Below, piece after piece: positions 35,347-58,819 of a stretch of 64,000 nucleotides of DNA. The notes beneath the pieces were generated by a model, which was not told the origin of the DNA, made no database searches, and was given only the letters and a program-made list of their open reading frames with translations. Position numbers and translations under genes: made by a program. Each line of letters opens with the position of its first letter. Within the stretch, counting starts at the first letter, position 1. The stretch spans positions 3,475,821-3,539,820 of the forward strand of contig NC_022997.1 of the NCBI RefSeq assembly GCF_000503895.1, read 5' to 3'. This stretch comes from Hyphomicrobium nitrativorans NL23. GTDB lineage: Bacteria > Pseudomonadota > Alphaproteobacteria > Rhizobiales > Hyphomicrobiaceae.

Positions 35347-35392
35347 TTGGTCGGAGCGAGAGGATTTGAACCTCCGACCCCCAGTCCCCCAG
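35347..35392 (-). repeat. attL: displaced 3' half of tRNA-Pro
   Basis: 46 bases identical to 58740-58786 except for one extra C in the right copy (58777). It covers the CCA end, acceptor 3' strand, T-arm, variable region and anticodon loop of tRNA-Pro. It is the left boundary of the genomic island. Confidence 0.9.
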
Positions 35393-35639: not shown

Positions 35640-35702
35640 AAATATAATGTTATTCTAGTGCGGCCTAGGATGCTTCAACCTCCTTTCAGGGGAGTATTCC
35701 TT

Positions 35703-37013
35703 ATGGCCATCTCTGCCCACAACTCTACTCACAACAAATCCTCCAACATTACCAATAGGTTAATCCTCTCCAGAATCAAAGAAGCTACGACGACCGGAAG
35801 GGCCATTGCCATCTGGGACGGCGAGCTTAGGGGTTTCGGCGCTCGTATCTCGCCAACAGGGCGTGTCACTTGGATCGCAAGCAAGGCCATCGGCAGGGGC
35901 AAAGGAAGCACACAGCGCGTTGTCGTAGGCCACTATCCGGGAATGCCTCTTGATCAAGCTCGTATAGAGGCAGGACAGGTCATTGCGCGGTTGGCCAAGG
36001 GTGAGGATGTCATCTCGCAGGTGAAGCAGGCCAAGGTTGCAAAGATCGAAAGCCGTCAGTGCCCGACAGTCAAAGAAGCTGTTGCCGATTACCTTGATGG
36101 CCGGAAGCATAACCCCAAGCTAACACCCGGATCGCGATACGAGACCGAGGTGGCCGGGCTGTTCCATCGTCAATACGTCCCCGAGCTAGGTGCATCAACG
36201 CGCCTCAACGCAGTGATAAAGGCGGACATCAAGGCCATGCTCAAGAAGCGCAACGATGCCGGGCACTATGGTGCAGCCCGCTTTCTCATGGCGTCTCTGC
36301 GTCCATTCTTCGATTGGTGCATCCATGAGGACTACATCTCTACCAATCCATGCGCCGACCTCAAAGCACCGCCACCGCCAAGACGACTGCACAAGCTCAA
36401 TACCCAGGAGATCGTCACTCTATGGTCGGCATCATCGTGCGCGTCTGACACTTTCCCAATAATCGGCGCGTACTGGCGGCTGCTGCTCATGCTCTTGCAA
36501 CGTCGCTGTGAGGTCGGCGGCCTTCGCTGGCGGGAAGTTGATCTTGACCGGGCTGAGTGGATCATCCCCGGCTCACGAACAAAGAATAAGCGGGAGCATC
36601 TAGTCCCCCTCCCGAGGCAGGCTGTGGCCGAGCTACAGGCTCTAGGTCCAAAAAGCGGTGAATCTGATTTCATCTTTGGTCGGTTCGGCACCTCCCCACT
36701 CAGCGGGTTCTCCCAAGCGAAGGAGGAGATAGACGCGGTGATGCTTGCCAGGGCGACAGAGATTAATGCCGTCGTACGTCCGTGGCGCATCCATGATCTC
36801 AGGCGCACTGGGGCGAGCCTCATGTCTGGAATTAAGGTCCAAGGCCGGACGATGCCCCCACACATCATCGAAGCGGTGTTGAACCACACGCCGGGCACAC
36901 TCGAAGGCACCTATCAAGTCTGGTATTTGCACAAGTATGCTGACGATAAACGTGAAGCACTACAAGCATGGGCTGATCATTTGGATAGGGTGGTTGCCGC
37001 CTCGAATAGTTGA
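35703..37013 (+). CDS. P4-type tyrosine integrase
   Basis: 436 residues from the ATG at 35703, preceded by AGGGGAGT. The N-terminal DUF4102-type arm-binding domain covers about 35-125 (GELRGFGARISPTGRVTWIA). A SAM-like core-binding domain covers 125-225. The catalytic domain carries the Arg in LQRRCEVGGLRW (near 268), Lys in TKNKREHLVPL, HDLRRTG (364-370), His in LNHTPG and Tyr in GTYQVWY (near 404). It sits 310 bases from attL and directs recombination in the tRNA-Pro 3' half. Confidence 0.95.
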   Translation: MAISAHNSTHNKSSNITNRLILSRIKEATTTGRAIAIWDGELRGFGARISPTGRVTWIASKAIGRGKGSTQRVVVGHYPGMPLDQARIEAGQVIARLAKGEDVISQVKQAKVAKIESRQCPTVKEAVADYLDGRKHNPKLTPGSRYETEVAGLFHRQYVPELGASTRLNAVIKADIKAMLKKRNDAGHYGAARFLMASLRPFFDWCIHEDYISTNPCADLKAPPPPRRLHKLNTQEIVTLWSASSCASDTFPIIGAYWRLLLMLLQRRCEVGGLRWREVDLDRAEWIIPGSRTKNKREHLVPLPRQAVAELQALGPKSGESDFIFGRFGTSPLSGFSQAKEEIDAVMLARATEINAVVRPWRIHDLRRTGASLMSGIKVQGRTMPPHIIEAVLNHTPGTLEGTYQVWYLHKYADDKREALQAWADHLDRVVAASNS

Positions 37014-39179: not shown

Positions 39180-42100
39180 TCAATGCAGCAGGTCGAACGC
39201 GATCGGGCCCTTGCGGTTGAAGCGCACTTTGAACGATACGGTATCGCCGGAGCGCAGCGAGTTCCACATCAGCGGCGGGGTATTGTCGGCATGCGTGAAA
39301 ATGCGGGCCGGGTAGGCTGCCGACTGAACAAAGGCTATGGTGGCTTTGAGCGAGGCGATGGTGCCGGTGTAACAGCCCAACCGTTTGGTGATGATGGTGT
39401 CGCGCGCAGGCGCGCGCTGGCGGAAGTGGGACGGGGCTAGCCGGTCTATCTGGACGAACACCTGCTGGGCCTCGTGCGCTGATCCGGTAAGGAACAGGTA
39501 CTGGGCGTGTAGGTAGCGTGCTTCGTAGTTGTGGTCGTTGCTGGCGTAGCTCTTGGCGAGGTGCTGCTGGATGGCGAGATGGCGGTCGGGCTCGTTGGCG
39601 AGCAGGTACTTCGCCATCTCAAGGTGTGCCATGCGATCGTCGGGGTTGCGCTCGAGGGCTGAGCGTAACACTTCGCCGGAGCGGGCGGGCTCGTGGTGTT
39701 CGTCATAATACTGAGCCAGCCGGATCGCCACGCCGGAGCCGCGCGGTCCGGCCTTCCAAGCTTTCTCGAGCGCGGCCACGGTCCGCTTGTGCTGGGAGAG
39801 GATATCGCGCAGGCGCGCCTCGGCCTTGTGCGGCTCGCTGTCGTCGGGGAACAGCTGCTGGAACTGCGCCAGCTGTTTCTCGGCATCCTTGATCTTGTCT
39901 TGGAAGAAGGCGAGGTCACGCTCGTTCGGGGGATCGGCGAGGGCCTGCGCAAGGTCGGCAATTTCATCTATGGTGATGTTGACACGAGTGGACAGTACAT
40001 AGGCGTCCCGGTCGGCGCGCATTTCCGACAGGCGCTCGCGCGCTAGACGCCGGTATTGCTCCTTGGCGAGCGGCGATGTGGCAAGGTTGGCCCGCTTGCG
40101 GCAGATGAGGGCGTGCGTGTGCTTAATGGGCTTGGCATCGGGACCAAGCAACAGGGCTTCGCGCACCAGGCGGTCGGATTCATCGAGCGAGCCCTGCGGG
40201 TGGTTGAGCTCGAAGATTGCCCATTGCTGATAGAGGAAAGCGCGATCAGGCGCGGCTTCAAGCGCCGCCCGATAAATCGTGCGCCCCGCTTCGGGTGAGG
40301 CAAGGTCGTCGGCGAGTTTGCGGCCACGGGTGATCTCGTCGAGCGCACGCGCGTCCGAGCTATAGCCAATATCGAGCGCACCGACGATTCGTGCCAGCTG
40401 TTCGGCGCGCTCCTCGTCGCTGGCGCAGGCTTGTTGGAACACGAGCTTAGCGATGTGGGAGTGGCGGGCGATGTAGTGCCAGTCGCCAGTATAGTGGTCG
40501 ACGTCATTGAGCACCACGTTCTCCAGGGGCACCAGGAAATTCTGCTGGTAGTCGGCAAAGCGGATGCCCGAGATGCGCGATATGGTGCCGGCGCGAGCGA
40601 CTACGCCGTACTGGTGCAAGGTGCAGATATCGAGGTAGAGCTGGCGCGCCTGCTCGGGGACTATGCCGAGGTATTCCTCGTGCACGATCTTCTCGAAGGG
40701 CTTGCCGAGGGTGGTTTCGTGCAGCGCCACCAGCAGCTGACTCTCGGCACGATCGGTGAAAGCTCGCACCTGCGCGTCGCGCTGCTGGCCCGCCAGCAGA
40801 CCAAGTGCGTTGTGGCGTGTCAGCAGGTCGAGCAGTGCCTCGATCTCGGCCCCGGTGAGGATCGGAATGGCCATGTCGTTAGGCATGCCTGATTGTTGCA
40901 GGCTTTCGCAGTAGACATTCCATTCGTTCAAGCGCTCGGCTCCGATCAGCGTGAGGGGGAGACCCTTCAGCTTAGCGGTGGTGATGAGGCTGTGCAGCAC
41001 ATCGACGCGCAGTGCGAGCTTGTCTACGAACAGAAACAGCCGCTTGCCGCTCAAGCGGTGCAACTCGGCGAGCGTGTCGAAGGAGATGGCGCCGCTGTCG
41101 TTGAGCCATAGCACGAGCGCGTCATAGTCGGCGGCGGCCTCCCACGCAGCGCGCTTTAAGACGATGGTCTTGCCGGAACCGGCCGGCCCAGTCACTACGT
41201 AGAAGTCGAGCTCTGGGCCGGCAGGGGGATCGAGCACGGCATCAAGCACGATGTTGTCGACGATGCGGCGGGGAAAATCGAGGCGCTGCGCGATCGCACC
41301 CCAGCCCGTATCGAAGCCCTGGTAGAAGCGCTGTGGATCCTGCGCCGCGAGCGGCATCTGCGGGTGCACCAGCGTCAGATCCCGCTCGAGCGCGGTGGCG
41401 AGCGCGGCCGGCGTTGGCTGGTTGGTCTTGAAGTGGCGCCGCACCGGTTCGGTGACCGTGCTCGGTGTCGGCGCGAGCGCGCGCGCCGCCGGTGGGATTT
41501 CGCGGTCGAGCGCCTGCATGAACTCGTTGAAGGTGGCCTTGATAATGTGCACGTTGCGGCTCGCCCAGAACTGCACCTCGAAGTCGGTCGCCTTTGGCGT
41601 GACGATGTAATAGGCGGGGCGCTTGATGCCGTCTGCGGCGAGATCATAGATCAGGTTGCGGATATGCGGATCCGCAAGCTGGTAGCCGACGAACACGAAG
41701 GCGCTTTCAAAAGCCCAACTGCGCAGCCGGTCATAGAGGCGCGTGCGGTGGCGCTCGTACTGGCTGTAATGCTCGGGTGAGAGTACCAGCGGCACGTCCT
41801 TGTCGTGCAGGTGGTTCAAGCAGCCGTGCAGCTTGAGGAACATCAACGGCGCCGCGTCCCGCTGCAGCCGCTCTTCCACCGGTTCGCTGTCCTTCACGAA
41901 CGGCACTAGCGTTTGCAGCCGGTCGCGCGCCGAATAGGCCTTGTCGACCAGTAGGTCGTAGTTAGTGGTCGCAAGCCCGCGCCAGCGAAAACCCGGCAGA
42001 AGCTTGTGTGCTGGCGACGGCTGGAACGCGTCTAGCTGCGTGCGAACGAACTCGAAAACCGTTGCTTGGCCGTGCACCTGGATCGCCATCTCGGCCAGCA

Positions 42101-42311
42101 CGGTGAGATCGTAGTCCTCCATCGGATTGTTGAAGAAGCGTATACCGAGCTGCGCACGCAGCTCCTTGGCCGACGGGCCATGACGGCCGTGCGTATCGAG
42201 AGCATCCATGGAGGCGCCGGCGCCAAGGAAAAGCACGACATGCTGGCTGCGCACCGATTGCTGCAGCGCTGCCGGCAGATCGACCCGTGGAGGAGCGAGC
42301 GTTGTGGTCAT
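39180..42311 (-). CDS. SIR2-STAND-TPR protein with C-terminal cold-shock-like domain
   Basis: About 1043 residues from the ATG at 42311; the frame upstream is not protein-like. Residues 20-270 are SIR2-like: LFLGAGASMDAL near 30, ATTNYDLLVDKAY, LKLHGCLNHL near 158, and FVGYQLADPHIRNL near 208. A P-loop NTPase follows: Walker A VTGPAGSGKTIVLK near 375 and Walker B RLFLFVDKL near 425. Residues 690-960 are TPR-like helical repeats. The last 70 residues (GTIASLKATIAFVQ; ARIFTHADNTPPLMWNSLRS; GDTVSFKVRFNRKGPIAFDL) resemble a cold-shock/OB fold. SIR2-STAND proteins (AVAST type V) deplete NAD+ on sensing phage. The OB-type end could be a nucleic-acid sensor (inference). Confidence 0.85.
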   Translation of the reverse strand: MTTTLAPPRVDLPAALQQSVRSQHVVLFLGAGASMDALDTHGRHGPSAKELRAQLGIRFFNNPMEDYDLTVLAEMAIQVHGQATVFEFVRTQLDAFQPSPAHKLLPGFRWRGLATTNYDLLVDKAYSARDRLQTLVPFVKDSEPVEERLQRDAAPLMFLKLHGCLNHLHDKDVPLVLSPEHYSQYERHRTRLYDRLRSWAFESAFVFVGYQLADPHIRNLIYDLAADGIKRPAYYIVTPKATDFEVQFWASRNVHIIKATFNEFMQALDREIPPAARALAPTPSTVTEPVRRHFKTNQPTPAALATALERDLTLVHPQMPLAAQDPQRFYQGFDTGWGAIAQRLDFPRRIVDNIVLDAVLDPPAGPELDFYVVTGPAGSGKTIVLKRAAWEAAADYDALVLWLNDSGAISFDTLAELHRLSGKRLFLFVDKLALRVDVLHSLITTAKLKGLPLTLIGAERLNEWNVYCESLQQSGMPNDMAIPILTGAEIEALLDLLTRHNALGLLAGQQRDAQVRAFTDRAESQLLVALHETTLGKPFEKIVHEEYLGIVPEQARQLYLDICTLHQYGVVARAGTISRISGIRFADYQQNFLVPLENVVLNDVDHYTGDWHYIARHSHIAKLVFQQACASDEERAEQLARIVGALDIGYSSDARALDEITRGRKLADDLASPEAGRTIYRAALEAAPDRAFLYQQWAIFELNHPQGSLDESDRLVREALLLGPDAKPIKHTHALICRKRANLATSPLAKEQYRRLARERLSEMRADRDAYVLSTRVNITIDEIADLAQALADPPNERDLAFFQDKIKDAEKQLAQFQQLFPDDSEPHKAEARLRDILSQHKRTVAALEKAWKAGPRGSGVAIRLAQYYDEHHEPARSGEVLRSALERNPDDRMAHLEMAKYLLANEPDRHLAIQQHLAKSYASNDHNYEARYLHAQYLFLTGSAHEAQQVFVQIDRLAPSHFRQRAPARDTIITKRLGCYTGTIASLKATIAFVQSAAYPARIFTHADNTPPLMWNSLRSGDTVSFKVRFNRKGPIAFDLLH

Positions 42312-42680: not shown

Positions 42681-43916
42681 TTGAAAGTCTTCTATTCTTG
42701 GCAGAGCGACCTGCCGGGCGCCACGCATCGCCATTTGATCCGCAGCGCATTGGACCGGGCCATCACCGAAGTGTCCAACGAGCCCGACCTTGAAGAGGCT
42801 GATCGTCCCGAGATGGACGAAGCCACCAAGGGCGAACCGGGCATGGTCGATATTGCCGCGACCGTGTTGAAAAAGATTGGAGAGTGTAGGGCCTTCGTGG
42901 CGGACCTGACGCCGGTATGCGAAGCGCCCAACGGCAAAAAGATGCCGAACTCCAACGTTGTCTTCGAGTTGGGCTACGCCTATGCCAAGCCGGGTCAAGG
43001 CGCCATCATCGCCATCGTGAACAAAGCCAAGTACAAGCCCGACGACTTGCCGTTCGACCTGCGCGGCAAGCGAGTCATGAGCTACAAGCTTGCCGACAAC
43101 GCAACGCCAGCGGAAAAGAAGTCCGCGCTTGATGGGTTAACTCGCGGGCTGACCGATGCCCTGAGGCTCATCGTTACCAACGCCAGAGATGTAAAGGCTG
43201 CCACGACGGAAATTGAAGGGGTAGAAGCCGATCCCTCCAACCCCTCCATCTGGAAGGGTGGCCGCAGGTTCGACTTCACCATCCCCTACCTGAATGAGGA
43301 TGTGGTTCACATTATTGACAGCCACCAGCGGTCTTTCGTCCGCATTATACCCGCGCCGTGGAAGGTTCCTAACATAACTGAGGTGGCTAGCCTGGCTAAC
43401 GACCTATGGCCCTCTACGTCTGGCGGCACTGGCAGCGGAAACTACGGCGCTGTAGAGTTCGGCTACGTCAAGCTGTGGTACGCAGGCAAGAGGGATGACG
43501 GCCAATACATCGCCAAGAATGTCGCTGCATTCCACGAGGCCAGCGGCGAATGGTGGTTTATCGATGGTTCGTCGGTCATCGAATATCAAAACGAGACCTT
43601 CTTCGACCCCATCAAGACCTTCGCGGAGTGGCAACGGTCCATCCGGAACGCCAATGCTAACCTCGATAGGCTCGGCGCCCCACCTCTGAGGAAGGTTATC
43701 GTCGGTGTAGTGGGCACGCAGAATGCCATGTGGGCGGGCAGGCCCGAGAAAAAGTTTCGCAAACCGTCGATGGAGCACTCAGCGCAGAACGCTCAATGGA
43801 CCGCGGTTGACGAGATGGTCTTCCTGAAGGACGCTTACAACATCGTCCGCAATGGCTTCGCCATGGAGCCGTTGGACCAAGTGAAGTTTGATAAGCTGCT
43901 AGACAAGCTCGTGTGA
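42681..43916 (+). CDS. TIR-like nucleotide-binding protein
   Basis: 411 residues from a TTG start at 42681. The N-terminal 150 residues have the Rossmann-like pattern of TIR-related effectors: VFYSWQSDLPGATHRHLIRS at the start, ECRAFVADLTPVC for the third strand, and MPNSNVVFELGYAYA, where Glu97 is in the position of the TIR catalytic Glu. The C-terminal 230 residues are not recognised and may be the sensing domain. TIR domains hydrolyse NAD+ or make signal nucleotides. It is divergent from the SIR2-STAND gene and may be an independent defence gene. Confidence 0.75.
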   Translation: MKVFYSWQSDLPGATHRHLIRSALDRAITEVSNEPDLEEADRPEMDEATKGEPGMVDIAATVLKKIGECRAFVADLTPVCEAPNGKKMPNSNVVFELGYAYAKPGQGAIIAIVNKAKYKPDDLPFDLRGKRVMSYKLADNATPAEKKSALDGLTRGLTDALRLIVTNARDVKAATTEIEGVEADPSNPSIWKGGRRFDFTIPYLNEDVVHIIDSHQRSFVRIIPAPWKVPNITEVASLANDLWPSTSGGTGSGNYGAVEFGYVKLWYAGKRDDGQYIAKNVAAFHEASGEWWFIDGSSVIEYQNETFFDPIKTFAEWQRSIRNANANLDRLGAPPLRKVIVGVVGTQNAMWAGRPEKKFRKPSMEHSAQNAQWTAVDEMVFLKDAYNIVRNGFAMEPLDQVKFDKLLDKLV

Positions 43917-45711: not shown

Positions 45712-48300
45712 ATGAGAACAGATAAGCGGATCCAGGAAGCGGTAGAGGCTGGCCAGAAGAACCAGAGGACAATGCTTCTTGTCCGCAACTGGTGTTCGCA
45801 TATGAAGGTTCGGCGCATGGGAGGCGTCGGGCTGATCGAAATGCAGACCAGACTGCCTATTGGTCACCACTCCTTGGAGTGCCCACATGCCGCCGCCGCC
45901 GGGATGGCCACTTGGGATTTGGCTGATGCCGCAGTCGATTTCTATGACCGCAACTGCGCGGGATGCTCGCACCGAAAGCCGGTCGGCTTTCCCAATATCT
46001 TCGAACTTGTAGCGGCGCGAGACAAGGCGAAGGCGGAAAAAGAAGAGGAGGCCAAGGCCTATCAGGAAAAGGTCGCCTCGGAACTAGCTCGCCGTGATGC
46101 AGCCCGTGAGGCAATTCGCCAAGAATTAAGCCCTGTCCAGGCGACGGTGCTCGATCAACTCCGGGAGCTGGACCACAATCCAACCTCAGAACGCGTTACT
46201 CAACTGGTGGAAACCGCCAAGGTAGCACCCGAGCACTTCACAGCCTCCGTACAGGACCATTTGATGGAGCTGCTCGACATAGGCGGGTGGTACCGCAGCG
46301 AAGCGTGCCTTGGGGTTCTTGAGGCCCTTGGCGCTCCTGCAGACAAACTATGCAACGCCGCCCTCAAAGCACTCGGGGCACACGACGCGGTTCACGAGGC
46401 GGCCGCTCTGGTTTTGAAGCATGCCGCTGCAGCGGATGAGAAGTTGATCGCAAAGGCATTGTCATCGCTCATTGGCCTGGCAAATCCCAAACCCTGTCCG
46501 ATCATGGGAGGCCGCCAGCAAGTTGACCCTCGGCCCCTTCAAGTGCTGTTCCGCCATCACCCCAAGGCAGTTAAGGAAGGCATCGAGCGCATCTTGGATA
46601 GCAACTCGGCCTACCGTGTTGAAACGGCAGCACGAGGGATTGAGGCTATCTCAGAGAGCGATCCCGCGTTTGCAGTGGGATTTGCGACGACGCTGGTTTC
46701 CAAACTCGTTCGTGCCAATCACTTACTACAAGATCTTGATGAACGAGATTTTGAGCAGACCGGCGTCATCCGTAAAGCGATTGCCGCGGCATTCGCTTAC
46801 AGTCCCGATGAAGTCGACAAGATCATTCAAGGATTTGTAGTCGGCGCAGACGACGATGGGCGCGCTGCAATTGTAAGCATCTACAATGCGGTCTTTCGAG
46901 ACTTACAATTTGGCAGAGGCCGCTTCGGTGCGGAGAAAGTACCGCCCACGAACGCACACGCCCTCGCATTCAAACGCCTCATCTGGGCAGCGACATCAAT
47001 GCAAGGTACGGAAACTTTGCAAGCCCTCCAGAGCGCGCTCCATGGAGAGCTCTACGATCTAGCGCCCCTGGCGACACAGGAGATCGATAGTCTCTTGGGC
47101 GCCTCCGCATTGCTGGACGACAAGCTGAACACAAAAACCTCGCCGCTTCTCACAGGGATTCAGGATCCTGTGCCGCAGGAATTGGCGGAGCTGGAACAAT
47201 GGAACCGGCAAGGCACTCTTAGCGGGCTCCAGGAAACATTCGTGCGTTGGGCCTGCCAAGCAGCGCGCGCCGGCGGCATGCCTGCCGTTGAGACGGTGCT
47301 TGCTTTCTTCCGGCAGCTTCCGGAAGACCGCGAAAATCTGCGTGCGGCCTTCATCGGCAACATGCACAAAATGATAAGCGGGAATGAAACGCTCAACGCG
47401 ATTCTGCCGGATTTTTATAGCGCATTGGTGGGCGGGTCCCAGCTATGTCGGTCTTCGGCTGCCTCTGCCCTTGGTGAATTCGCGGGCCGCCGTCACAACG
47501 ACCTTCCTGATCTTGTGTATGAGGCTTTTGTTCCCCTCCTGACAGATCCTTTTGTCATTGTTCACCAAGCCGCAGTTAGGGCTCTTGAGCGGTTCACCTT
47601 GCCGGAGGCGCTTGCTCCCCAGGCGCGCAACGCGCTTGTCGTTTTAGTCATGACCTATGCGCAAAGCCGCTCAAACGATCGGTTTCTCCTCGATTGCCTT
47701 GAGCTTCTATGCGGTCGTTATGAACCAGGTCCGGAACTTGAGCCACAATTGGCCAGCACTGTTCTCGCGCTGCTCAAGCGCGCAAAGCCCTCAGAGGTGT
47801 CACGGGACATCCGCTTCTGGGGGAGACGCCTGCGCAACCACGCGCGCTTTGGAGACCTCCTGCTGCACCTTCTTCAAGACCGAGAGGCAATCGGATACCA
47901 CGCGGACAATCTCTATTCGGAACTGAAAAAACTGCCTCACCATGTCATTCAAGCCAATCTCAATGCCATTGAGCGCTTCGGGCTCTTGGGTAACCAAGTT
48001 ATCCGAGGACGTTCTGGCTTTATCGTTGGTTTGCTTTCAGAGGCCGGAGCTGGGGAGAAGGTCCTCAATGTTGCCCGCGCTGCCTATGCCGCAATTGAAG
48101 ACACGGCTTGGAATAAGCCTGCAAAACTTGACGCTGAACTCAGAATGATTGCGTGTGAGTATGAACACGCCATCGCATCTGGTGACAGCGCGGGCCTCGC
48201 TGGAGTTGGCCAGCGATGGCGGAGAGCCCACAAGGAACGTGAGGTCGACCTTGCGACGCACAAGCAGCGGAGAGATCCTCTCCGAGGTCTACTCGGCTAG
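45712..48300 (+). CDS. Zn-cluster and HEAT-repeat protein
   Basis: About 862 residues from the ATG at 45712; the frame is open back to 45613. The N-terminus carries a conserved-looking cysteine cluster: RNWCSH (C28), HHSLECPHA (C57), and FYDRNCAGCSHRK (C82, C85), which fits a zinc site. A charged coiled coil follows (residues 100-140, AKAEKEEEAKAYQEKVASEL). The rest, to about residue 830, is alpha-helical HEAT-type repeat (for example SEACLGVLEALGAPADKLCN, HQAAVRALERFTLPEALAPQ). No catalytic motif. The end overlaps the next gene. It is likely the scaffold or sensor of a nuclease system. Confidence 0.75.
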   Translation: MRTDKRIQEAVEAGQKNQRTMLLVRNWCSHMKVRRMGGVGLIEMQTRLPIGHHSLECPHAAAAGMATWDLADAAVDFYDRNCAGCSHRKPVGFPNIFELVAARDKAKAEKEEEAKAYQEKVASELARRDAAREAIRQELSPVQATVLDQLRELDHNPTSERVTQLVETAKVAPEHFTASVQDHLMELLDIGGWYRSEACLGVLEALGAPADKLCNAALKALGAHDAVHEAAALVLKHAAAADEKLIAKALSSLIGLANPKPCPIMGGRQQVDPRPLQVLFRHHPKAVKEGIERILDSNSAYRVETAARGIEAISESDPAFAVGFATTLVSKLVRANHLLQDLDERDFEQTGVIRKAIAAAFAYSPDEVDKIIQGFVVGADDDGRAAIVSIYNAVFRDLQFGRGRFGAEKVPPTNAHALAFKRLIWAATSMQGTETLQALQSALHGELYDLAPLATQEIDSLLGASALLDDKLNTKTSPLLTGIQDPVPQELAELEQWNRQGTLSGLQETFVRWACQAARAGGMPAVETVLAFFRQLPEDRENLRAAFIGNMHKMISGNETLNAILPDFYSALVGGSQLCRSSAASALGEFAGRRHNDLPDLVYEAFVPLLTDPFVIVHQAAVRALERFTLPEALAPQARNALVVLVMTYAQSRSNDRFLLDCLELLCGRYEPGPELEPQLASTVLALLKRAKPSEVSRDIRFWGRRLRNHARFGDLLLHLLQDREAIGYHADNLYSELKKLPHHVIQANLNAIERFGLLGNQVIRGRSGFIVGLLSEAGAGEKVLNVARAAYAAIEDTAWNKPAKLDAELRMIACEYEHAIASGDSAGLAGVGQRWRRAHKEREVDLATHKQRRDPLRGLLG

Positions 48301-49708
48301 AATCGAGGCCGTGGAAGCATTGACCGCCGCAGAGGCGGCACCTTCGGCTGCCAATGTTACGGCACTGACTTCGGCAGCTGACGCTCTGACCAAAGCTTCC
48401 GCACGATATGGAAGCGCGCCGACAGGCGACATCTACCACGCGTTCGCAAAACTTATGGAAATCGCAGGCTTGCTTGGTGAGTGGCAACTCGCTGTCCTGA
48501 ATGCAGCTCCTGAGGCCGACCGTTTTCTTCGTGCTGCCAAGGAACGTGCCCAGGCTATGAAGGGTGAGTCGGTCCCGCCCTTGTTAGAGCAACTGCCAGA
48601 CTTGGTCGAAGCAATCTCAACTACTGCACAGGCCAAGGCCTTCGTTGCCCAACTCGCCAAGGTGCCTCTTCCGATTGGCCTATACCATGTGGCACCTGAG
48701 GAACCGAGAGAGCGGCACACAAAGCACGATCCGGATACCGAATCCGCGAAAGCGAAGCTGGCTGTGGCGTTTCTGGAGTTCACCGTCGATGGTCGCCCCT
48801 TGGCGGATGTGCACTACATGGCTCCCATGCAAATCCATGATCTGGATGTCACCGTCAGGGTTTCTCGTTGGCCAGAGAAGGCCGAGCGGCTGGTGTTGCG
48901 TCCTGTGAGCGTCGTGAGTGCCTCGTTTTACCAACTTCCAACCTTTGAATTTCTGGCACCTTCGGGTGATGGGCCCTTCAAGTTCCAGGATCATAAGCAC
49001 GCCACCCTGACGATGGCTCAATCCATTCTCGCCCGGCCTCTCGAATTCAAATACACAGCGGAGTTTGAACCTCGAGGAACAGAACAGCCAGTCGAAGTCG
49101 TTGGGCAGCGGACATTGCGGTTAGAAGCCATTGACTGGGAGCGCAACCCTCAGACCGGGTACACGAGCATCGATCGCAAACTTATTCAGATCCGAGACCA
49201 ATTGAGGGGTATGGCTGGCGTTCCCGAGGACGATATAGCGGAAGCACTGAAGATTGCCGTGTCTCTGGGCAAGCTTGCTGGCCAAGCTGTGCAAGACAAT
49301 CGCTTTCCTCAGCCGCTGAAGGAGAAGGATTTCCAGACAGAAACCCTTCGGCATCTGCGGTCCGAACCTTCCGTCGGTTCAACCCTTCAGGAACATCCTC
49401 GAGCCGGAGGAGGCATCACCGACCTATCCTTTAAGGGGCTGCCTATCGAGCTGAAGGCTGAAACTGACAAGACGCTTCAACTGCAAGACTGCCAAGGCTA
49501 TGTGGAGCAATCCCAAGCTTATGCCGTCGCTAATGGTCGGCGGTTAGGAATCCTATGTGTTCTTGACACTTCCCCGAAGAAGGCCCCACCGTTCCCTGCA
49601 GAGGAAGGCATAGGACTCCTATTCAGGAATCAGAATGATCGTCGTGTCCCCATAATCACCCTGCTGATTCAGGGGAATCTAACCAAACCAAGTCAGTTTT
49701 CCGTGTAG
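48161..49708 (+). CDS. PD-(D/E)XK nuclease protein paired with the HEAT gene
   Basis: About 515 residues; the start is uncertain (TTG 48149, ATG 48161, GTG 48239 or TTG 48251, the last with GTGAGG upstream). The frame overlaps the HEAT gene. N-terminal 130 residues are helical. The middle (PLADVHYMAPMQIHDLDVTV; FKYTAEFEPRG) looks like a beta-sandwich. The C-terminal domain has a full nuclease set: Glu in DFQTETLRHLR near 393, Asp in GGGITDLSFKG near 420, Glu-x-Lys in LPIELKAE near 430, and Gln in YVEQSQAYA. This is the Mrr/Hjc-type order. It probably cleaves DNA. Confidence 0.75.
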   Translation: MNTPSHLVTARASLELASDGGEPTRNVRSTLRRTSSGEILSEVYSARIEAVEALTAAEAAPSAANVTALTSAADALTKASARYGSAPTGDIYHAFAKLMEIAGLLGEWQLAVLNAAPEADRFLRAAKERAQAMKGESVPPLLEQLPDLVEAISTTAQAKAFVAQLAKVPLPIGLYHVAPEEPRERHTKHDPDTESAKAKLAVAFLEFTVDGRPLADVHYMAPMQIHDLDVTVRVSRWPEKAERLVLRPVSVVSASFYQLPTFEFLAPSGDGPFKFQDHKHATLTMAQSILARPLEFKYTAEFEPRGTEQPVEVVGQRTLRLEAIDWERNPQTGYTSIDRKLIQIRDQLRGMAGVPEDDIAEALKIAVSLGKLAGQAVQDNRFPQPLKEKDFQTETLRHLRSEPSVGSTLQEHPRAGGGITDLSFKGLPIELKAETDKTLQLQDCQGYVEQSQAYAVANGRRLGILCVLDTSPKKAPPFPAEEGIGLLFRNQNDRRVPIITLLIQGNLTKPSQFSV

Positions 49709-49865
49709 GTGCGCGGGAGCGGGGGCGAAGCTCCTCTGGCGCTGCGGGCAAATGAGTGCACTCAGGCCCTATCTCATCCACCACTGCCCTGTTGCATCCC
49801 CCAATCTTGCAGGGCGATCTCGAATCGTCGCTGATCACCTTCTTCTTTATCTCGGGAGAAGGTCG

Positions 49866-51086
49866 ATGCCCCAAGAAAGCAACACGTTTCGCTGTATCTA
49901 CTGCGGAAGGGAAAAACCCGCCGTCGCCCGATCCTACGAGCATATTTGGCCGGATACCTTTGGAGGTGGAGCCTCTCCGGATTGGTTCAAGACGAACGAT
50001 TGCTGCGGGGAGCCACGCAAGCCGAAGCAATGCAATCACCTGATGGGCCAGTTCGTCGATGCCGAGGTCGCGCGCACGCCCTTTGGAACCAAGTGGCGAC
50101 TCAGCGCCGAGATGCCATTCCTCGACACTGAGCGTCCGCAAGCGTTGCCGTTGGTTTTCATGGGTTGTCAGACGGAGAACCCTTCGGCCGACGAGATATG
50201 CGAGAATTGGCTCGGGTCTCGCGGCGAGGCCGTCTATTGCATTCATCGGATCGACCGGGACGATTTCAAGACCTATGCCGGCGGGGATCCGATCCGGCGC
50301 AAAATGAATGACCCCGGTCGGGTGTACTTTGGGCTCACCAAGCTCAATGCCTACTGGCTGTTGGTGGCAGTTCTCTCGGTCAAGAAGAAGTTTCCCGGCG
50401 CGGAAATCCGGCTGCTAACCGCCGTCGATGATCCTCAAATCGCTCAGCTCCTTTCGCCCGAGACATCGCAATCCATCGCCGAGCGTCATTACCTCCTGCC
50501 CCGTTGGCGTAAACAAACCCAACACCTGAATCAGACCTGGAATCTGGACTATGGCAACCGCTTTCTCTGCAAGCTCGCAGTCGGATTTGGTCACGCGTTT
50601 TTCGGACCCGCATTCGCGGAGCGGCCGCACGAGAGAACCCTTCGCGAGGGCCTTTGGCGCCGTCCCGGAAACTCCACAGAGCCACTCAGGATAAAAGGCA
50701 AAGCGTTCTTTGAACCTGGTGATTCCGGCTTGAGCAAGCTGCTCACTAACGCCGCGGCGTTCACGCTTGTGTTCTCACGGACACCGGAAGGCGCGTGGGT
50801 ATCTACTTTTATGCCGGACGGTATTTTTGCAAGCTGCATGATCTTGCCGGCGTCGGAAATGCTCCCTTCCGACTTCTTCAAGACATTCACCGATTGCTTC
50901 ACCGTGCTCTTGTACCCGGCTCTCAACCAGTTCGTGGGGCCGTTGCCCCTTCAGGCCTACATCGAGCACCGGACTGGCGCGCGCACTGTCCAAGCGCTTG
51001 GTGAGATCGAGCAGCGGCAGAAGACGATCTCGCAGATCGAAGCGGAAGTGGCAAAGTTCAACATCGCTGGCAGTGAGGCCGCATAA
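49866..51086 (+). CDS. HNH endonuclease-domain protein
   Basis: 406 residues; the ATG at 49866 is preceded by GAGAAGG, so the longer open frame is rejected. The N-terminal HNH domain has FRCIYCGRE (C10, C13), SYEHIWPDTFGG (His26), and KPKQCNHLMG (C56, N57). The zinc ribbon HNH of the 'CxxC...EH...CN' class is intact. The remaining 320 residues are not recognised. It follows the PD-(D/E)XK gene by 157 bases in the same direction. Confidence 0.75.
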   Translation: MPQESNTFRCIYCGREKPAVARSYEHIWPDTFGGGASPDWFKTNDCCGEPRKPKQCNHLMGQFVDAEVARTPFGTKWRLSAEMPFLDTERPQALPLVFMGCQTENPSADEICENWLGSRGEAVYCIHRIDRDDFKTYAGGDPIRRKMNDPGRVYFGLTKLNAYWLLVAVLSVKKKFPGAEIRLLTAVDDPQIAQLLSPETSQSIAERHYLLPRWRKQTQHLNQTWNLDYGNRFLCKLAVGFGHAFFGPAFAERPHERTLREGLWRRPGNSTEPLRIKGKAFFEPGDSGLSKLLTNAAAFTLVFSRTPEGAWVSTFMPDGIFASCMILPASEMLPSDFFKTFTDCFTVLLYPALNQFVGPLPLQAYIEHRTGARTVQALGEIEQRQKTISQIEAEVAKFNIAGSEAA

Positions 51087-51391: not shown

Positions 51392-52516
51392 TTGACCTGG
51401 ATTTGTATTGCTGTGCTGCCCAACATTCGCCTCGAAAATTCGATCGAGGGCGGGCAGATTGCCATGGCTTCTGCGGAGGATGGACGCGTCGGAGCAGCCG
51501 TGAAGCAACATCCGCTGCTCGGAGACTTTCTGTCGCGGTTCTACGACACGCACAACAACCCCATCACACCGAGCGTGCTCCTCTGGAATGCCGCGACTGA
51601 GTCCGACCTCCCGCGGTTCGATGCCATATGCAATTTCCGCGACGTGGCTGCCGTGTCTCACGTGCTTTTCGCTAGAGCCAGCGCGATGATCGCTAGCAAC
51701 CCACCCGCAGCACAGTGGATGGACTATTTCAGCATCTTCCCCTGGATGCTGACGCGCGATCACAAGTACATCGCGTGTAATACCCCTGCCATCCGTGGCT
51801 TGCATGATGTCAGTCGCTTCCGCGGGCAAATGTTACCGGAGCTCGTAGATCGCTCGCTTAGCGCGCGGGACTTTGATCAACCGCTTTTCGACGCCCTCAT
51901 CCAGAAATGGAATGAGGTCCATCTGTTTGGTGCCGACACCCACGCCCATACGGCGCTCTTTCGTTCGCTTAATATGGCCTTTCGCGCTGGCGCAATTCCT
52001 GGTGGGATGGATGCGACTACCTATGACTACGGCCGGTCGTTGGCCCTTTGGGTGTCGGCCTTTGAGATCTTGGCGCACCCCGGCGGAAATGGTAAAGCCG
52101 ATCTTCTCAAGGTCTATGAACTTCTCGAAAAGGCCCCTTACGAAATCAGGAAGGTCTCCAACGCCGTATATGCCGCCTATTACAATCGCAATAGGAAAAC
52201 ATCGCCAAAAAGAAACCTCGCTTGCTTGTTGTATGGCGAGATCTATCAAGCGCGTAACGATTTCCTGCACGGGAACCCGTTGCCGCCGGATAGGCTCCTC
52301 GTCAATGATACTGGCCGTCACCTGCTGAATTACGCTCCGCCGCTTTTCCGCGTGGCTCTAACTGCGACGCTCGACATAAGGTGGACGAAGCAGCGTCCGT
52401 CGATTGCGGATGTGGACGCAACCGGGCAGTGGATCTCCGATCAGATCGACTTCCTGGATCCCCAACGTGTGGCGGAACGGGCCTTAGCAACCAGTCTTGA
52501 TCCGGTGACAGCATGA
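51392..52516 (+). CDS. HEPN (ApeA-like) domain protein, candidate RNase
   Basis: 374 residues from a TTG start preceded by GAGGATG; the N-terminus WICIAVLPNIRLENSIEGGQ has a conserved look that supports this start over the ATG at 51464. The C-terminal region holds the HEPN catalytic signature Arg-x4-His in YQARNDFLHGNPL (Arg288, His293), preceded by helix LACLLYGEIYQA. HEPN RNases act in toxin-antitoxin, CRISPR and abortive-infection systems. The stop is one base before the next ATG, so both genes are translated together. Confidence 0.7.
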   Translation: MTWICIAVLPNIRLENSIEGGQIAMASAEDGRVGAAVKQHPLLGDFLSRFYDTHNNPITPSVLLWNAATESDLPRFDAICNFRDVAAVSHVLFARASAMIASNPPAAQWMDYFSIFPWMLTRDHKYIACNTPAIRGLHDVSRFRGQMLPELVDRSLSARDFDQPLFDALIQKWNEVHLFGADTHAHTALFRSLNMAFRAGAIPGGMDATTYDYGRSLALWVSAFEILAHPGGNGKADLLKVYELLEKAPYEIRKVSNAVYAAYYNRNRKTSPKRNLACLLYGEIYQARNDFLHGNPLPPDRLLVNDTGRHLLNYAPPLFRVALTATLDIRWTKQRPSIADVDATGQWISDQIDFLDPQRVAERALATSLDPVTA

Positions 52517-52517
52517 T

Positions 52518-54437
52518 ATGAAGCGCAATATTTGCATAACAACCACCGATCAGATCAATCTCTCGAACATCCTCATACCCGCGAACGTCCTTGCGCATAG
52601 CATAGAGCGCGCGTTTAACGAGGCTGACGCCGTGACTGGATTTGGAGGGTTTCCGACGTACATATCGCACGACTGGACGCGACCAATCGGATGGAACATT
52701 CCGCTAGGGCTACACTTGGCGGCAGGCATCGCGAGACAAATCGGTGAATTGTGGTGGCCCGAAACTTCCGATGAGAAAGCGGCATGTCAGGACGCTCAAA
52801 CAGCGTTTTTAGAGCGTCTACGCGTCGAGAAAGCAGCACAGTATGGGACGGATTTGCTCGCGAGAGTGGGAACAGACGGGGCGAACGCATCTATCGTGTA
52901 TGTGTCTGGGGGTGCCGCACTATATCGCCCGGACCTCGCACGAACCCTCTATCCTCACCTATTTGAAGTAGGTACCGATACAGTCGATAAGGATGGCTTG
53001 GTCGATTATCGATACCTTCGCAGTCGATACCCCGAGATGCGGCCCGGCATCTTCCACGATCCCGAGAAAGACGTGGTGCTTTTCGCCCATCCATATCTGC
53101 GTCGCAGTCTCTCCCGTCTCAACGTGCTCAACAATGACCTGCTCACGAGACTCGCTGCTTTGGCCGAAAGTGAACTATCAGTCACGCTTCGCCTAAGGCT
53201 CGATCCCGATATCGTGGGTTATCCTGACACCAGGGCAGCATTAGAGCTAGAGTTCTGGCGCGGCCCCAAGTTCACGGACGACATCGGCAAAATCCCAGCC
53301 GGTGTCACCGAACACAAGGCATCGGATCGCCTTAAAGAGTTCGAGGGTATCGATCGTACCCAATTCTGGTGGAAGACAGAGGACGAGCACAAACGAACGT
53401 TTGAAGCCGAGGAGATCCGCGACACGCCCAGCTTGGGTGTTTCAAACGACTACTATGGCTGTCGCTACATGCATTCTGAGTTCGGCACTCGCGAAGAGAC
53501 GATTACACACTTTGACGGTGCGATCCGAGGGTACGACACAGAAGCCTTCGTAACGCGTATCGATCAATCCATTGACCGAGCTGGGAAGCGAGCTGACTAC
53601 ACAAAGCTCTTCAGAGTGGACGGCGGGCTAACTGTGGAACTCTGGAAAGAGTTAGTCTCCGACTATTTCCGTGGCAACACGCTGGTCCCGGAATACTTTG
53701 GTTCACCACCCCAACGTGACGAGACGAATAGAGCGCAGCCACGCGCGGCGCCGGTGTCAGAAACGACGGGGCAACTAATGATCGGCTACTTAGATCGAAC
53801 GGCAATCACAGCAAGTGATTGTACGGCGCTCATATCCTTTGATCTGGTAGCGCAAGACGATGGGCCCGCACAGTTTCGCGTCTTTGAGGCACTGCCACCC
53901 GGCATAGCGGAGGCATTTTCGAGCTTCAGTGAGTACACCAACGGCGCCCAGATTGAGTACGGTGATCGGCTGGCGAACCTACCTGTGCTCGTATTCGGGC
54001 AGGCCAACGAGGCGACACAGGAATTCTCTCACTGGTGCGCTTGTATCCCGCGCGTCCTCTCGAAAGAGCGAGAGAACCTGGACTTGGCGGCGGCGGCATT
54101 TATGTGGCCTCGCGAGCGCTATTGGGTGATGCTTTCCCTTTGCGGGGATATCGTTTGGCTGATCGATGCGCTAGGCCAGTTGCCTACGGTGGTTCGCACT
54201 CAAGAGCCCCCATCGGTTTGGGTGCAGGACCTGAAGGCCAAACTAGCTAGTGGCGCACAAAGCAACGGCAAGATCGCTGATATCGACGATGTTCGTTGGC
54301 CGGGCTTTCTGAAGCTTCGGCGAACCCAGAGCACGGCATCATTCCGTGTCCCCTCTGGTCATCCCGCGTTCGACTTCTTGAACAAAAAGGCAGCGGGTCC
54401 AAGCGGTGGAGACCGAGAGCCGCGAACGGAGGGCTGA
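52518..54437 (+). CDS. 639-residue protein coupled to the HEPN gene
   Basis: No family was recognised. The start ATG lies one base after the HEPN stop. The sequence is soluble, acidic and aromatic, with no membrane helix or signal. Segments that may be conserved include VSGGAALYRPDLARTLYPHL, DPEKDVVLFAHPYLRRSLSR and TEHKASDRLKEFEGIDRTQF. No P-loop or nuclease motif was found. It may be the sensor or regulator of the HEPN protein; that is inference from coupling. Confidence 0.65.
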   Translation: MKRNICITTTDQINLSNILIPANVLAHSIERAFNEADAVTGFGGFPTYISHDWTRPIGWNIPLGLHLAAGIARQIGELWWPETSDEKAACQDAQTAFLERLRVEKAAQYGTDLLARVGTDGANASIVYVSGGAALYRPDLARTLYPHLFEVGTDTVDKDGLVDYRYLRSRYPEMRPGIFHDPEKDVVLFAHPYLRRSLSRLNVLNNDLLTRLAALAESELSVTLRLRLDPDIVGYPDTRAALELEFWRGPKFTDDIGKIPAGVTEHKASDRLKEFEGIDRTQFWWKTEDEHKRTFEAEEIRDTPSLGVSNDYYGCRYMHSEFGTREETITHFDGAIRGYDTEAFVTRIDQSIDRAGKRADYTKLFRVDGGLTVELWKELVSDYFRGNTLVPEYFGSPPQRDETNRAQPRAAPVSETTGQLMIGYLDRTAITASDCTALISFDLVAQDDGPAQFRVFEALPPGIAEAFSSFSEYTNGAQIEYGDRLANLPVLVFGQANEATQEFSHWCACIPRVLSKERENLDLAAAAFMWPRERYWVMLSLCGDIVWLIDALGQLPTVVRTQEPPSVWVQDLKAKLASGAQSNGKIADIDDVRWPGFLKLRRTQSTASFRVPSGHPAFDFLNKKAAGPSGGDREPRTEG

Positions 54438-55029: not shown

Positions 55030-56904
55030 ATGAAAACATTTGAAAGAATAGAGCGCGAACGGCTGGAGGTGCAGCTGAGTGAGCGTCTCGATTGGGACTC
55101 GTGGTTTCCTCATACCGAGAAGAAACCGCCAACAACAGGATCATTCGCCGACCGAACACTAGCCGATCTCCGTAAGTCATTTTCCACATACGGTCATCGT
55201 CCGGCTGTTAGCATGTGGACTGCCATTGAAGACATTGTACGCACTATTGCTGAGATGGCAAACGGCAACGCGAAACCGATGTTCTATGTCTCTGCACTTG
55301 ATCCTGGTGTCGGCAAGACACAAGCGATAGTGCATTCGGTCCGCAATCTAGATGCTGATGTTGGAGTACTGATTTGCCTTTCTCGTATCGAAGAGGTCGG
55401 ATCACTCGTCAAGGAAATGGGGCTGGGTGATGGCTCCTACGGCGTATTGGTCAGCGAGAACAGCCAAGCGAGATTGAAGAAGGAGGGTATCCGTCTGGGC
55501 AACCCAGATCACAATGAGGCCCGCGTTCTCTTCACGACACAGCAAATGGTTGATAGCCGTTTGCACAACGTAGATGTCTTTCGAGTGCTCGATGAGTTTT
55601 TCTATCGCCACGAGCCTCGCGCGGTTCGTATCTGGGACGAGTCGATGCTGCCCGGCGAAGCGCTCACCCTCAATCTTGATCGCATCGGCAAACTGCTAGA
55701 GATGGTTCGCAAGGTTGATGGACGGCTAGCCGACCGACTCCTCGATTTGATAGCTGCCGTCAACGGTCACCCCAACGGATCAACGTACCAGATACCGGAT
55801 TTTGAGGCTGAGCATAGCAAGGCATTGCGATGGCTATCTCGAAACAAGAACGAGGTAGATAAGAAGAGCAAGGAGAGTGCTAGCACGCTACGTCTGCTCT
55901 CTGGAAAGCCCGTCAGAATCACACACGATGCGAAGGGCAAGACTGTCCTAACGTATCGAGAGAGCCTGCCTAATGACTTCGCTCCCGTTCTGATCTGCGA
56001 TGCAAGCGCACGTGTTCGCAAGACGTACGCGCTATGGGAGGTGCACCGAAAAAACCTCCTGACGCTCGCTAGGGCAGCTAAGAGCTATAAGAACCTTCGC
56101 ATCCATGTCTGGGATACAGGAGGCGGAAAGAGCGCTTGGAGTGACAAGAAGGCCAAACTGAATGATCTCATCGATGGAATCGTTCAAACGATAAAGACCA
56201 AGCCCAATGAGGAATGGCTGATCGTGCTCCATCAAGAAGATGGATGGAACATCCCCGATCTCGCCTTAGAGATCACTTCGCTCCTGCCTGACACCGTCCG
56301 AAAGCCCTCGTTCATCACGTGGGGTGATCATCACGCAACAAACAAGTACGTTGAAATCAAGAACGTGATCCTCGCTGGTACGCTGTTTTTCCAGCCTTCG
56401 GACTACGAAGCCCGGTATAGGCTGTGCGCCGCAAAGCCAGTGAATGTTCCAATCGGGGATGATGACCTAGATGACTTGAAGTTGGGCGAATACGCTCATG
56501 TAATCCTGCAAGCACTCTGCCGTGGATCGGTTCGCAAGTGCGCCGAGAACTGTTGCGGTCCGATGGACGCCTACATCATCGCTTCTGCGAACACCCAGAT
56601 TCCCAAGATACTGCCCGACGTCTTTCCTGATTGCGAGATTGTCCGGTGGCAACCTGTGGCACAGCCACTAAGCGGTCATGTCAAGCTGGCCGTTGAAGCC
56701 ATAGATGAGTACTTCGCTGGTTCTACGGACTTAAATCACAGACTGTCATTCTCCGAGCACCGCAAGATGCTTGGAGTCAGCCCGCAGATGCATAAGAACC
56801 GCATCCGTGACCACTTTGTATTTCAGGATGAGATGGCGAAGCGCGGGATTGTTGAGTGGGGGAAGGGAGCGAGGATGACCCATTTCCTCAAACTCGTCTT
56901 TTAG
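55030..56904 (+). CDS. Helicase-like P-loop ATPase, possibly element replication
   Basis: About 624 residues from the ATG at 55030, with GGAGATAATTTTC upstream; the earlier start at 55015 is less likely. Walker A DPGVGKTQAIV near residue 92 and a DE-box VRIWDESMLPGEALT near 202 suggest a superfamily 2-type motor. SFITWGDHHATNKYVEIKNV, VLICDASARV and HVILQALCRGSVRKCAENCC lie where helicase motifs III, V and VI would be. The C-terminus (HRKMLGVSPQMHKNRIRDHF) looks like a helix-turn-helix. Base composition is clearly more AT-rich than the flanks. A replication or mobilisation role is inferred. Confidence 0.6.
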   Translation: MKTFERIERERLEVQLSERLDWDSWFPHTEKKPPTTGSFADRTLADLRKSFSTYGHRPAVSMWTAIEDIVRTIAEMANGNAKPMFYVSALDPGVGKTQAIVHSVRNLDADVGVLICLSRIEEVGSLVKEMGLGDGSYGVLVSENSQARLKKEGIRLGNPDHNEARVLFTTQQMVDSRLHNVDVFRVLDEFFYRHEPRAVRIWDESMLPGEALTLNLDRIGKLLEMVRKVDGRLADRLLDLIAAVNGHPNGSTYQIPDFEAEHSKALRWLSRNKNEVDKKSKESASTLRLLSGKPVRITHDAKGKTVLTYRESLPNDFAPVLICDASARVRKTYALWEVHRKNLLTLARAAKSYKNLRIHVWDTGGGKSAWSDKKAKLNDLIDGIVQTIKTKPNEEWLIVLHQEDGWNIPDLALEITSLLPDTVRKPSFITWGDHHATNKYVEIKNVILAGTLFFQPSDYEARYRLCAAKPVNVPIGDDDLDDLKLGEYAHVILQALCRGSVRKCAENCCGPMDAYIIASANTQIPKILPDVFPDCEIVRWQPVAQPLSGHVKLAVEAIDEYFAGSTDLNHRLSFSEHRKMLGVSPQMHKNRIRDHFVFQDEMAKRGIVEWGKGARMTHFLKLVF

Positions 56905-58232: not shown

Positions 58233-58740
58233 CCACTAAGTCTGCTTATGATCCATCTAGGCTGCTGAGAAATCTCTGATCGAGACCAGGATGGTGTTTG
58301 GTCTACTTAGAGCTGGGTCTAGCTTTGGCATAGCCCCTGGCTCCTCTTGTTCTTGCTCGTAGAATCGATCTTCAAAAATTTCTGCGCGATAATCAGAGCG
58401 AGTAATTCCTCCCCCGATAGGGGCGGGCCACCCCCCACACACCCCTTGGTGTTGTCCACCTCTCGGCAAGCTGAACACCGAGATGTGTGTCCATCACTGT
58501 CCGAAGTCGGAGCGTAGCGCAGCCTGGCCAGCGCAAGCACCCGTTAGCCCGCTAGGGCGAGGAGCACGAGCTTGCTCGCTGCGACGAGGGTGCGACCGTC
58601 GTGAGGCGTCAGCCGAGCGACGCACCAGACTGGATGCGAATGAGTGCTTTCGCATACCAAACGCATACTAAATCGTGATATTCTGTGGCTGTCGCCATCA
58701 CAGGCAGACAGCTAAGAACTTGAGATTGCTGTGGGGGTTT
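58233..58740. other. Right end of the island, no gene
   Basis: About 500 bases with GC-rich palindromic text near 58540-58600 (GCCCGCTAGGGCGAGGAGCA) and the right arm site at 58648-58674. Open frames on the minus strand are not convincing. Confidence 0.5.
58648..58674. promoter_or_regulatory. Right candidate arm-type integrase site
   Basis: Two CGCATAC(C/T) words 11 bases apart. Direct-repeat partner of 35494-35520 with four differences in 27 bases, 66 bases from attR. Confidence 0.5.
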
Positions 58741-58819
58741 TGGTCGGAGCGAGAGGATTTGAACCTCCGACCCCCACGTCCCCCAGACTGGTGCGCTAAC
58801 CAGGCTGCGCTACGCTCCG
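58741..58819 (-). tRNA. tRNA-Pro(GGG), rebuilt by island insertion
   Basis: 79 bases including encoded CCA. Acceptor CGGAGCG / CGCTCCG pairs, D-arm GCGCAGCCTGGTTAGCGC, anticodon loop CTGGGGG with GGG at 58784-58782, T-arm GGAGG-TTCAAAT-CCTCT. After the loop the strand reads ACGTGG, where the displaced left copy reads ACTGG. That leaves one extra base (G on the tRNA strand, C58777 on +) opposite CCAGT in the anticodon stem. The 3' half is the attR core. It may be a bulged but working tRNA. Confidence 0.85.

Follow-up and report, generated by a model that had tools for sequence, protein, structure and literature searches.

A HEAT-repeat and PD-(D/E)XK gene pair on a Hyphomicrobium nitrativorans island: probably a conserved defence module, with a doubtful Olokun label

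Introduction

Do three neighbouring genes on a genomic island of Hyphomicrobium nitrativorans NL23 form a single defence system, and is it one that already has a name? The genes lie within a stretch of 64,000 nucleotides (nt) of contig NC_022997.1 (positions 3,475,821 to 3,539,820; hereafter the window), in a genome of 3.65 Mb that consists of one contig, and encode in order a HEAT-repeat protein with a cysteine cluster, a protein with a PD-(D/E)XK nuclease motif and an HNH protein. A reading of this DNA from its letters alone (the sequence-only reading) had proposed them as a three-gene candidate system in a likely defence setting. The analysis described here indicates that the first two genes form a conserved two-gene module, probably a defensive one, and that the name Olokun, which the PADLOC database attaches to them, is doubtful.

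A conserved gene pair

A search of genome contigs with the single HEAT sequence found no relatives. The first related pair was found in genome G459, and the pair is present in 2 of the 398 genomes of a phylum sample, its own included. Relative loci were then collected by a genome scan with an alignment of the two nuclease proteins (window and G459), in which 16 of 266 candidate stretches were confirmed; one of them, L028, is most likely G459 itself, and the loci come from what we take to be alpha-, beta- and gammaproteobacteria.

In all 16 relatives, which stem from this one scan, the HEAT gene lies directly upstream of the nuclease gene on the same strand. With the starts chosen, the overlap between the two open reading frames (ORFs) is 4-65 nt long in 15 of them, while in L025 a split HEAT ORF abuts the nuclease ORF. 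The HEAT ORF is interrupted in L025 and also in L023, and its first residues are missing in L031. The distance matrices of the two proteins correspond closely (r = 0.98, 0 of 5000 permutations, 14 loci), a result that linkage alone would also give. Another recurrent partner gene was looked for and rejected, since, the pair aside, no family was shared by more than 3 of the 17 loci compared (ORFs of at least 90 aa, BLASTP at 1e-8).

Viral contigs scanned with the HEAT and nuclease alignments gave no matches, and plasmids gave none to the HEAT protein. The nuclease has one plasmid match, a partial, C-terminal one in Rhizobium WSM1274, where the ORFs look broken; phages, searched with the nuclease and not with the HEAT protein, gave no match to it. 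No published description of a pair of the window type was found among the literature matches listed, most subscription papers lying outside that search.

The two proteins

The N-terminal four-cysteine cluster that had been read from the sequence is present in the HEAT protein, with FYDRNCAGC at aa 77-85. In an alignment of 16 rows (the window and 15 relatives), C57, C82 and C85 are identical throughout, and so are C28 and H30 wherever a row covers them, which 15 rows do. The four cysteines probably bind zinc. The AlphaFold2 model based on the 16 rows (mean predicted local distance difference test score, pLDDT, 84) shows a small N-terminal domain, then a long helix (94-136) and then a helical solenoid, a predicted fold that supports the HEAT scaffold of the sequence-only reading. 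Foldseek listed 50 matches against the Protein Data Bank (PDB), led by karyopherins, CAND1 and PP2A-A; template modelling (TM) scores are low, with query-normalised values of 0.13-0.26 across the 50. A sequence search of the PDB with the HEAT profile is headed by artificial alphaRep and other repeat proteins, with weak, unrelated rows (E 0.2-0.8) besides. When an alignment of 12 of the 16 HEAT rows (A5) was searched against 249 genomes, no genome other than that of the window and G459 gave a strong match. A match to the cysteine domain in G547 (E 0.0018) lies opposite a longer ORF on the other strand and was taken as chance, and one in G066 (E 0.002) carries two stops.

The nuclease ORF is open from a TTG at 48149, has an ATG at 48161 and ends at 49708. 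Its likely start is the TTG at 48251, with which the two genes overlap by 50 nt: this is where the related proteins start, and in the model of the longer version pLDDT stays below 50 for residues 1-32. Residues are numbered here on the translation of window positions 48176-49705. The AlphaFold2 model (17 rows; pLDDT 79, predicted TM score 0.52) consists of a helical part, a beta-sandwich (197-317) and a C-terminal alpha/beta domain that holds the motif. In the alignment of 17 rows (the window and 16 relatives), E383, D416, E425-x-K427 and Q445 of this last domain are identical in every row; the intact E-D-ExK-Q set after a beta-sandwich, as the sequence-only reading had it, is confirmed. A PDB sequence search with the nuclease profile gave no match, and family profile searches matched none of the three genes to an ATPase or methylase family, which agrees with what had been read from the letters.

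Kinship with LmuA and the defence neighbourhood

What kind of nuclease is this, and what keeps it company? The LmuA profile PDLC03853 matches the window nuclease at the domain level only (E 5.6e-12), and matches 6 of the 17 family members. A profile of the C-terminal domain, searched against 299 genomes, recovered the family itself (the window genome and G459) and three further proteins, two of which are LmuA adjoining LmuB and one a fragment. With three LmuA sequences the domain aligns in HHalign at 93.8% (E 1.7e-7), with E, ExK, Q and a GN..RPS tail in register. These sequence comparisons relate the nuclease domain of the window protein to the domain at the C-terminus of one LmuA family.

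Recognised defence genes stand near several of the relatives, in keeping with the setting first suspected. There are clear matches to Gabija GajA/GajB in L024, to DUF4297-HerA in L029 and to HEC-06 in L033, a moderate match to PARIS-like AriA/AriB in L023, and weaker defence matches in L027 and L030.

Our preferred reading, which we hold with some confidence though not a great deal, is that the pair is a two-gene, ATPase-free anti-phage (or anti-mobile-element) module, carried on a mobile island, in which a HEAT/zinc sensor would govern an LmuA-type nuclease. Several points weigh against it. The neighbour scan covered nine proteins, picked by hand and eye from 6 of the 16 loci, with no control set. 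No nuclease is present among the 50 best Foldseek matches for the whole nuclease model, which are helical or generic sandwich proteins with low TM-scores; the nuclease assignment thus rests on the motif and on homology. As many as 11 of the 17 family members fall short of the LmuA profile. Furthermore, a review of Lamassu describes the effector domains of LmuA as N-terminal and its C-terminal domains as variable and possibly concerned with docking (PMC10586767), so that the catalytic role of the C-terminal domain here rests on the motif.

How might such a module work? We infer complex formation, zinc binding, a trigger, DNA cleavage and an outcome for the infected cell as follows. The HEAT/zinc protein would serve as the infection sensor and would also hold or restrain its nuclease partner, which probably uses its helical part and its beta-sandwich either to dock to the solenoid or to bind the trigger. 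Upon infection, the nuclease would be released or assembled and would cut DNA, a step that would most likely stop the infected cell.

The Olokun label

On the window, the PADLOC OloA profile matches aa 21-832 of the HEAT protein (E 3.6e-60, 203 bits) and the OloB profile matches aa 33-471 of the nuclease protein (E 7.3e-51, 172 bits); OloB also matches all 17 family members. These matches argue that the pair is simply a divergent member of Olokun, a named two-gene system, and that PADLOC is right. The shared gene order and overlap, and the presence of a helical-repeat protein with a putative nuclease in both types, point the same way. Olokun was reportedly described first by Millman et al. in 2022. 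The E. coli-type pair, whose OloB is present in 14 of 5426 E. coli genomes, is likely the experimentally tested Olokun, and a single-query check with one DNA query found no match to the window type in E. coli. One paper reports Olokun among E. coli systems, citing its ref. 7 (PMC10121019).

Scores and comparisons between the two types stand against the label. Applied to the pairs in G128, G091 and E. coli, the same profiles give 288-371 bits for OloA and 597-688 bits for OloB; in G349, OloB scores 543 bits and OloA is split. The OloB scores form two groups, at about 540-690 and about 170 bits, to which G241 adds a single weak, partial match of 18.5 bits. When the window proteins were compared by BLASTP with the pairs of G128 and E. 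coli, scores did not rise above chance. Profiles of the E. coli type, built from 9 A (HEAT-side) and 10 B (nuclease) sequences, scored no higher than 8.2 bits (E 6.7e-4) for A and 1.2 bits for B when compared with the window family in either direction, and HHalign gave 3.4% for the HEAT side and 0.1% for the nucleases. When the E. coli proteins were added, the B profile did no better than reversed sequences and HHalign gave 0.9% (A) and 0.1% (B), whereas the same program, as a check on sensitivity, linked the window nuclease domain to LmuA at the value given above. In addition, the putative nuclease motif lies at opposite ends of the protein in the two types.

Some results favour kinship. The A profile scores the window family slightly above reversed controls, at the 8.2 bits already given and, once the E. 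coli proteins had been included, at 5.7 bits against -0.7; and the best BLASTP pair between the families, the nucleases of L029 and L040, has an E value of 0.001. On the HEAT side, this slight excess may reflect no more than the general likeness of repeat proteins, and the two pairs could conceivably be very remote kin. In all, we consider it unlikely, if still worth reckoning with, that the window pair is ordinary Olokun.

Because the OloB scores split in two groups and no convincing homology joins the pair types, the PADLOC profiles PDLC03925 and PDLC03926 probably blend two families, and the Olokun name for the window pair is doubtful. The sequence-only reading had not recognised the set as a named system, and had counted a named match or independently occurring homologues against its proposal. 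That view stands in part: PADLOC does name the first two genes, but the name is open to doubt. We would class the pair as a separate variant within the HEAT-plus-nuclease group, which databases put together with Olokun. A more specific proposal, offered tentatively and somewhat more likely wrong than right, is that this is a defence system without a name of its own, labelled Olokun by mistake because the two profiles blend unrelated families. It would be an ATPase-free relative of Lamassu: a HEAT solenoid bearing zinc would take the place of the SMC sensor and control a nuclease of the same kind.

If this is true, defence surveys based on the Olo profiles of PADLOC combine two unrelated systems under one name and would inflate Olokun counts, and the mechanism of neither Olo-labelled system can be read from the other. 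Furthermore, a Lamassu-type nuclease domain under HEAT/zinc control and with no ATPase would make possible a simple test of ATP-free sensing.

The third gene

The third gene matches Pfam HNH_5 (E = 3.1e-7). Its likely start is the ATG at 49866, after GGGAGAAGG, a position that fits the His26 numbering of the sequence-only reading and places the gene 157 nt past the nuclease stop. All three genes are on the plus strand, the first overlapping the second and the third following in the same direction, just as had been read. This arrangement speaks for a three-gene system in which HNH is a true third component in this lineage only, as does a scan that lists no promoter-like or terminator-like site in 49709-49865. 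Against it, no HNH relative is present beside the pair in the DNA available for any of the 16 relative loci, of which L025 and L019 extend only 1.3 kb and 3.4 kb downstream, and HNH relatives occur elsewhere without the pair. Four alphaproteobacterial plasmids carry HNH_5 relatives of 27.5-32.4% identity over 84-85%, and neither the HEAT protein nor the nuclease finds a match on these plasmids, three of whose four regions were inspected. Among 289 genomes of the class, G070 has a relative that adjoins an ORF reading as xseA, with no pair, and G115 has a weak match. HNH as a third component was therefore rejected, and with it the three-gene proposal, which we now regard as very improbable; going by its distribution among the sequences searched, the HNH gene is a passenger.

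The island and its other genes

Two identical 37-bp direct repeats delimit a 23.4-kb island that contains all three genes (Table 1); the right-hand copy lies at the edge of a tRNA-Pro gene (58741-58819, minus strand). A lower-GC stretch runs from about 35 to 58 kb of the window, interrupted by a GC-richer part at about 39-43 kb. Location in an integrase/tRNA island would suit a housekeeping or mobile-element role for the pair, such as DNA processing or island maintenance, rather than defence. The pair is rare and scattered in the phylum sample, however, recognised defence genes adjoin several of its loci, and its nuclease type is common to Lamassu; such a role is, in our judgement, improbable, and a defensive module remains the preferred reading.

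Table 1. Features of the window, in window coordinates
Feature	Coordinates	Strand	Remarks
HEAT-solenoid protein with N-terminal four-Cys domain (gene 1)	45712..48300	+	862 aa; PADLOC label OloA
Nuclease protein: helical N-terminus, beta-sandwich, C-terminal PD-(D/E)XK (gene 2)	48251..49708	+	PADLOC label OloB; start 48251 inferred
C-terminal PD-(D/E)XK domain of the nuclease protein	49298..49705	+	
HNH_5 protein (gene 3)	49866..51086	+	neighbour outside the conserved module; ORF open from ATG 49752
37-bp direct repeat, left island end	35347..35383		putative attachment site
37-bp direct repeat, right island end	58740..58776		at tRNA-Pro edge
ORF reading as tyrosine-type integrase	35658..37013	+	adjoins left repeat; read by eye

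Other genes of the region were also noted. A protein at 39183-42311 (minus strand), on the same island, combines SIR2_2 (PF13289, 1.5e-18), nSTAND_NTPase5 (PF25199, 4.4e-35) and TPR, and resembles SIR2-STAND defence proteins. Divergent from its gene, and likewise on the island, is a gene at 42681-43916 (plus strand) whose product is weakly TIR-like, matching CAP12-PCTIR at E 3e-4, which falls short of the cut-off. Downstream of the HNH gene, two adjacent genes on the plus strand (51392-52516 and 52518-54437; 374 and 639 aa) match nothing in Pfam or PADLOC at E values up to 1 and are possibly another unknown pair; for the 374-aa protein, the NCBIfam matches are at chance level (E 0.024 and 0.066), far below cut-off. 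A 624-aa protein at 55030-56904 (plus strand) matches no family of Pfam, PADLOC or NCBIfam within the same limit of E 1, and a GVGKT stretch was seen in it by eye.

Comparison with known systems

The known system nearest to the third gene is the group of plasmid HNH_5 endonucleases, represented by the four alphaproteobacterial proteins that it matches, but the plasmids of these proteins lack the pair. Gene 1 also resembles the PADLOC entry HEAT_CxxC_PDDEXK (PDLC01150) through a weak match of its HEAT stretch (aa 557-630, E 0.0034), but this match spans only 71 of the 288 profile positions and lies in the HEAT repeats, with the cysteine domain outside it.

With Olokun, the window pair has in common two overlapping genes in the order A-B, a helical-repeat protein first and a putative PD-(D/E)XK protein second, both matched by the PADLOC Olo profiles. 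However, neither window protein is convincingly homologous to the E. coli-type pair. The window HEAT protein is 862 aa long and carries the cysteine domain, versus about 574-606 aa in the E. coli type, and the putative nuclease motif, N-terminal in the E. coli type (consensus read by eye), is C-terminal and of the LmuA type in the window.

Lamassu differs in its partner and in most of its nuclease protein: no SMC-like LmuB was found among the nine window proteins scanned, the window partner being a HEAT/zinc protein without an ATPase, and the rest of the nuclease protein is unlike LmuA. What the window pair appears to share with Lamassu is the C-terminal nuclease domain, related to that of LmuA family PDLC03853.

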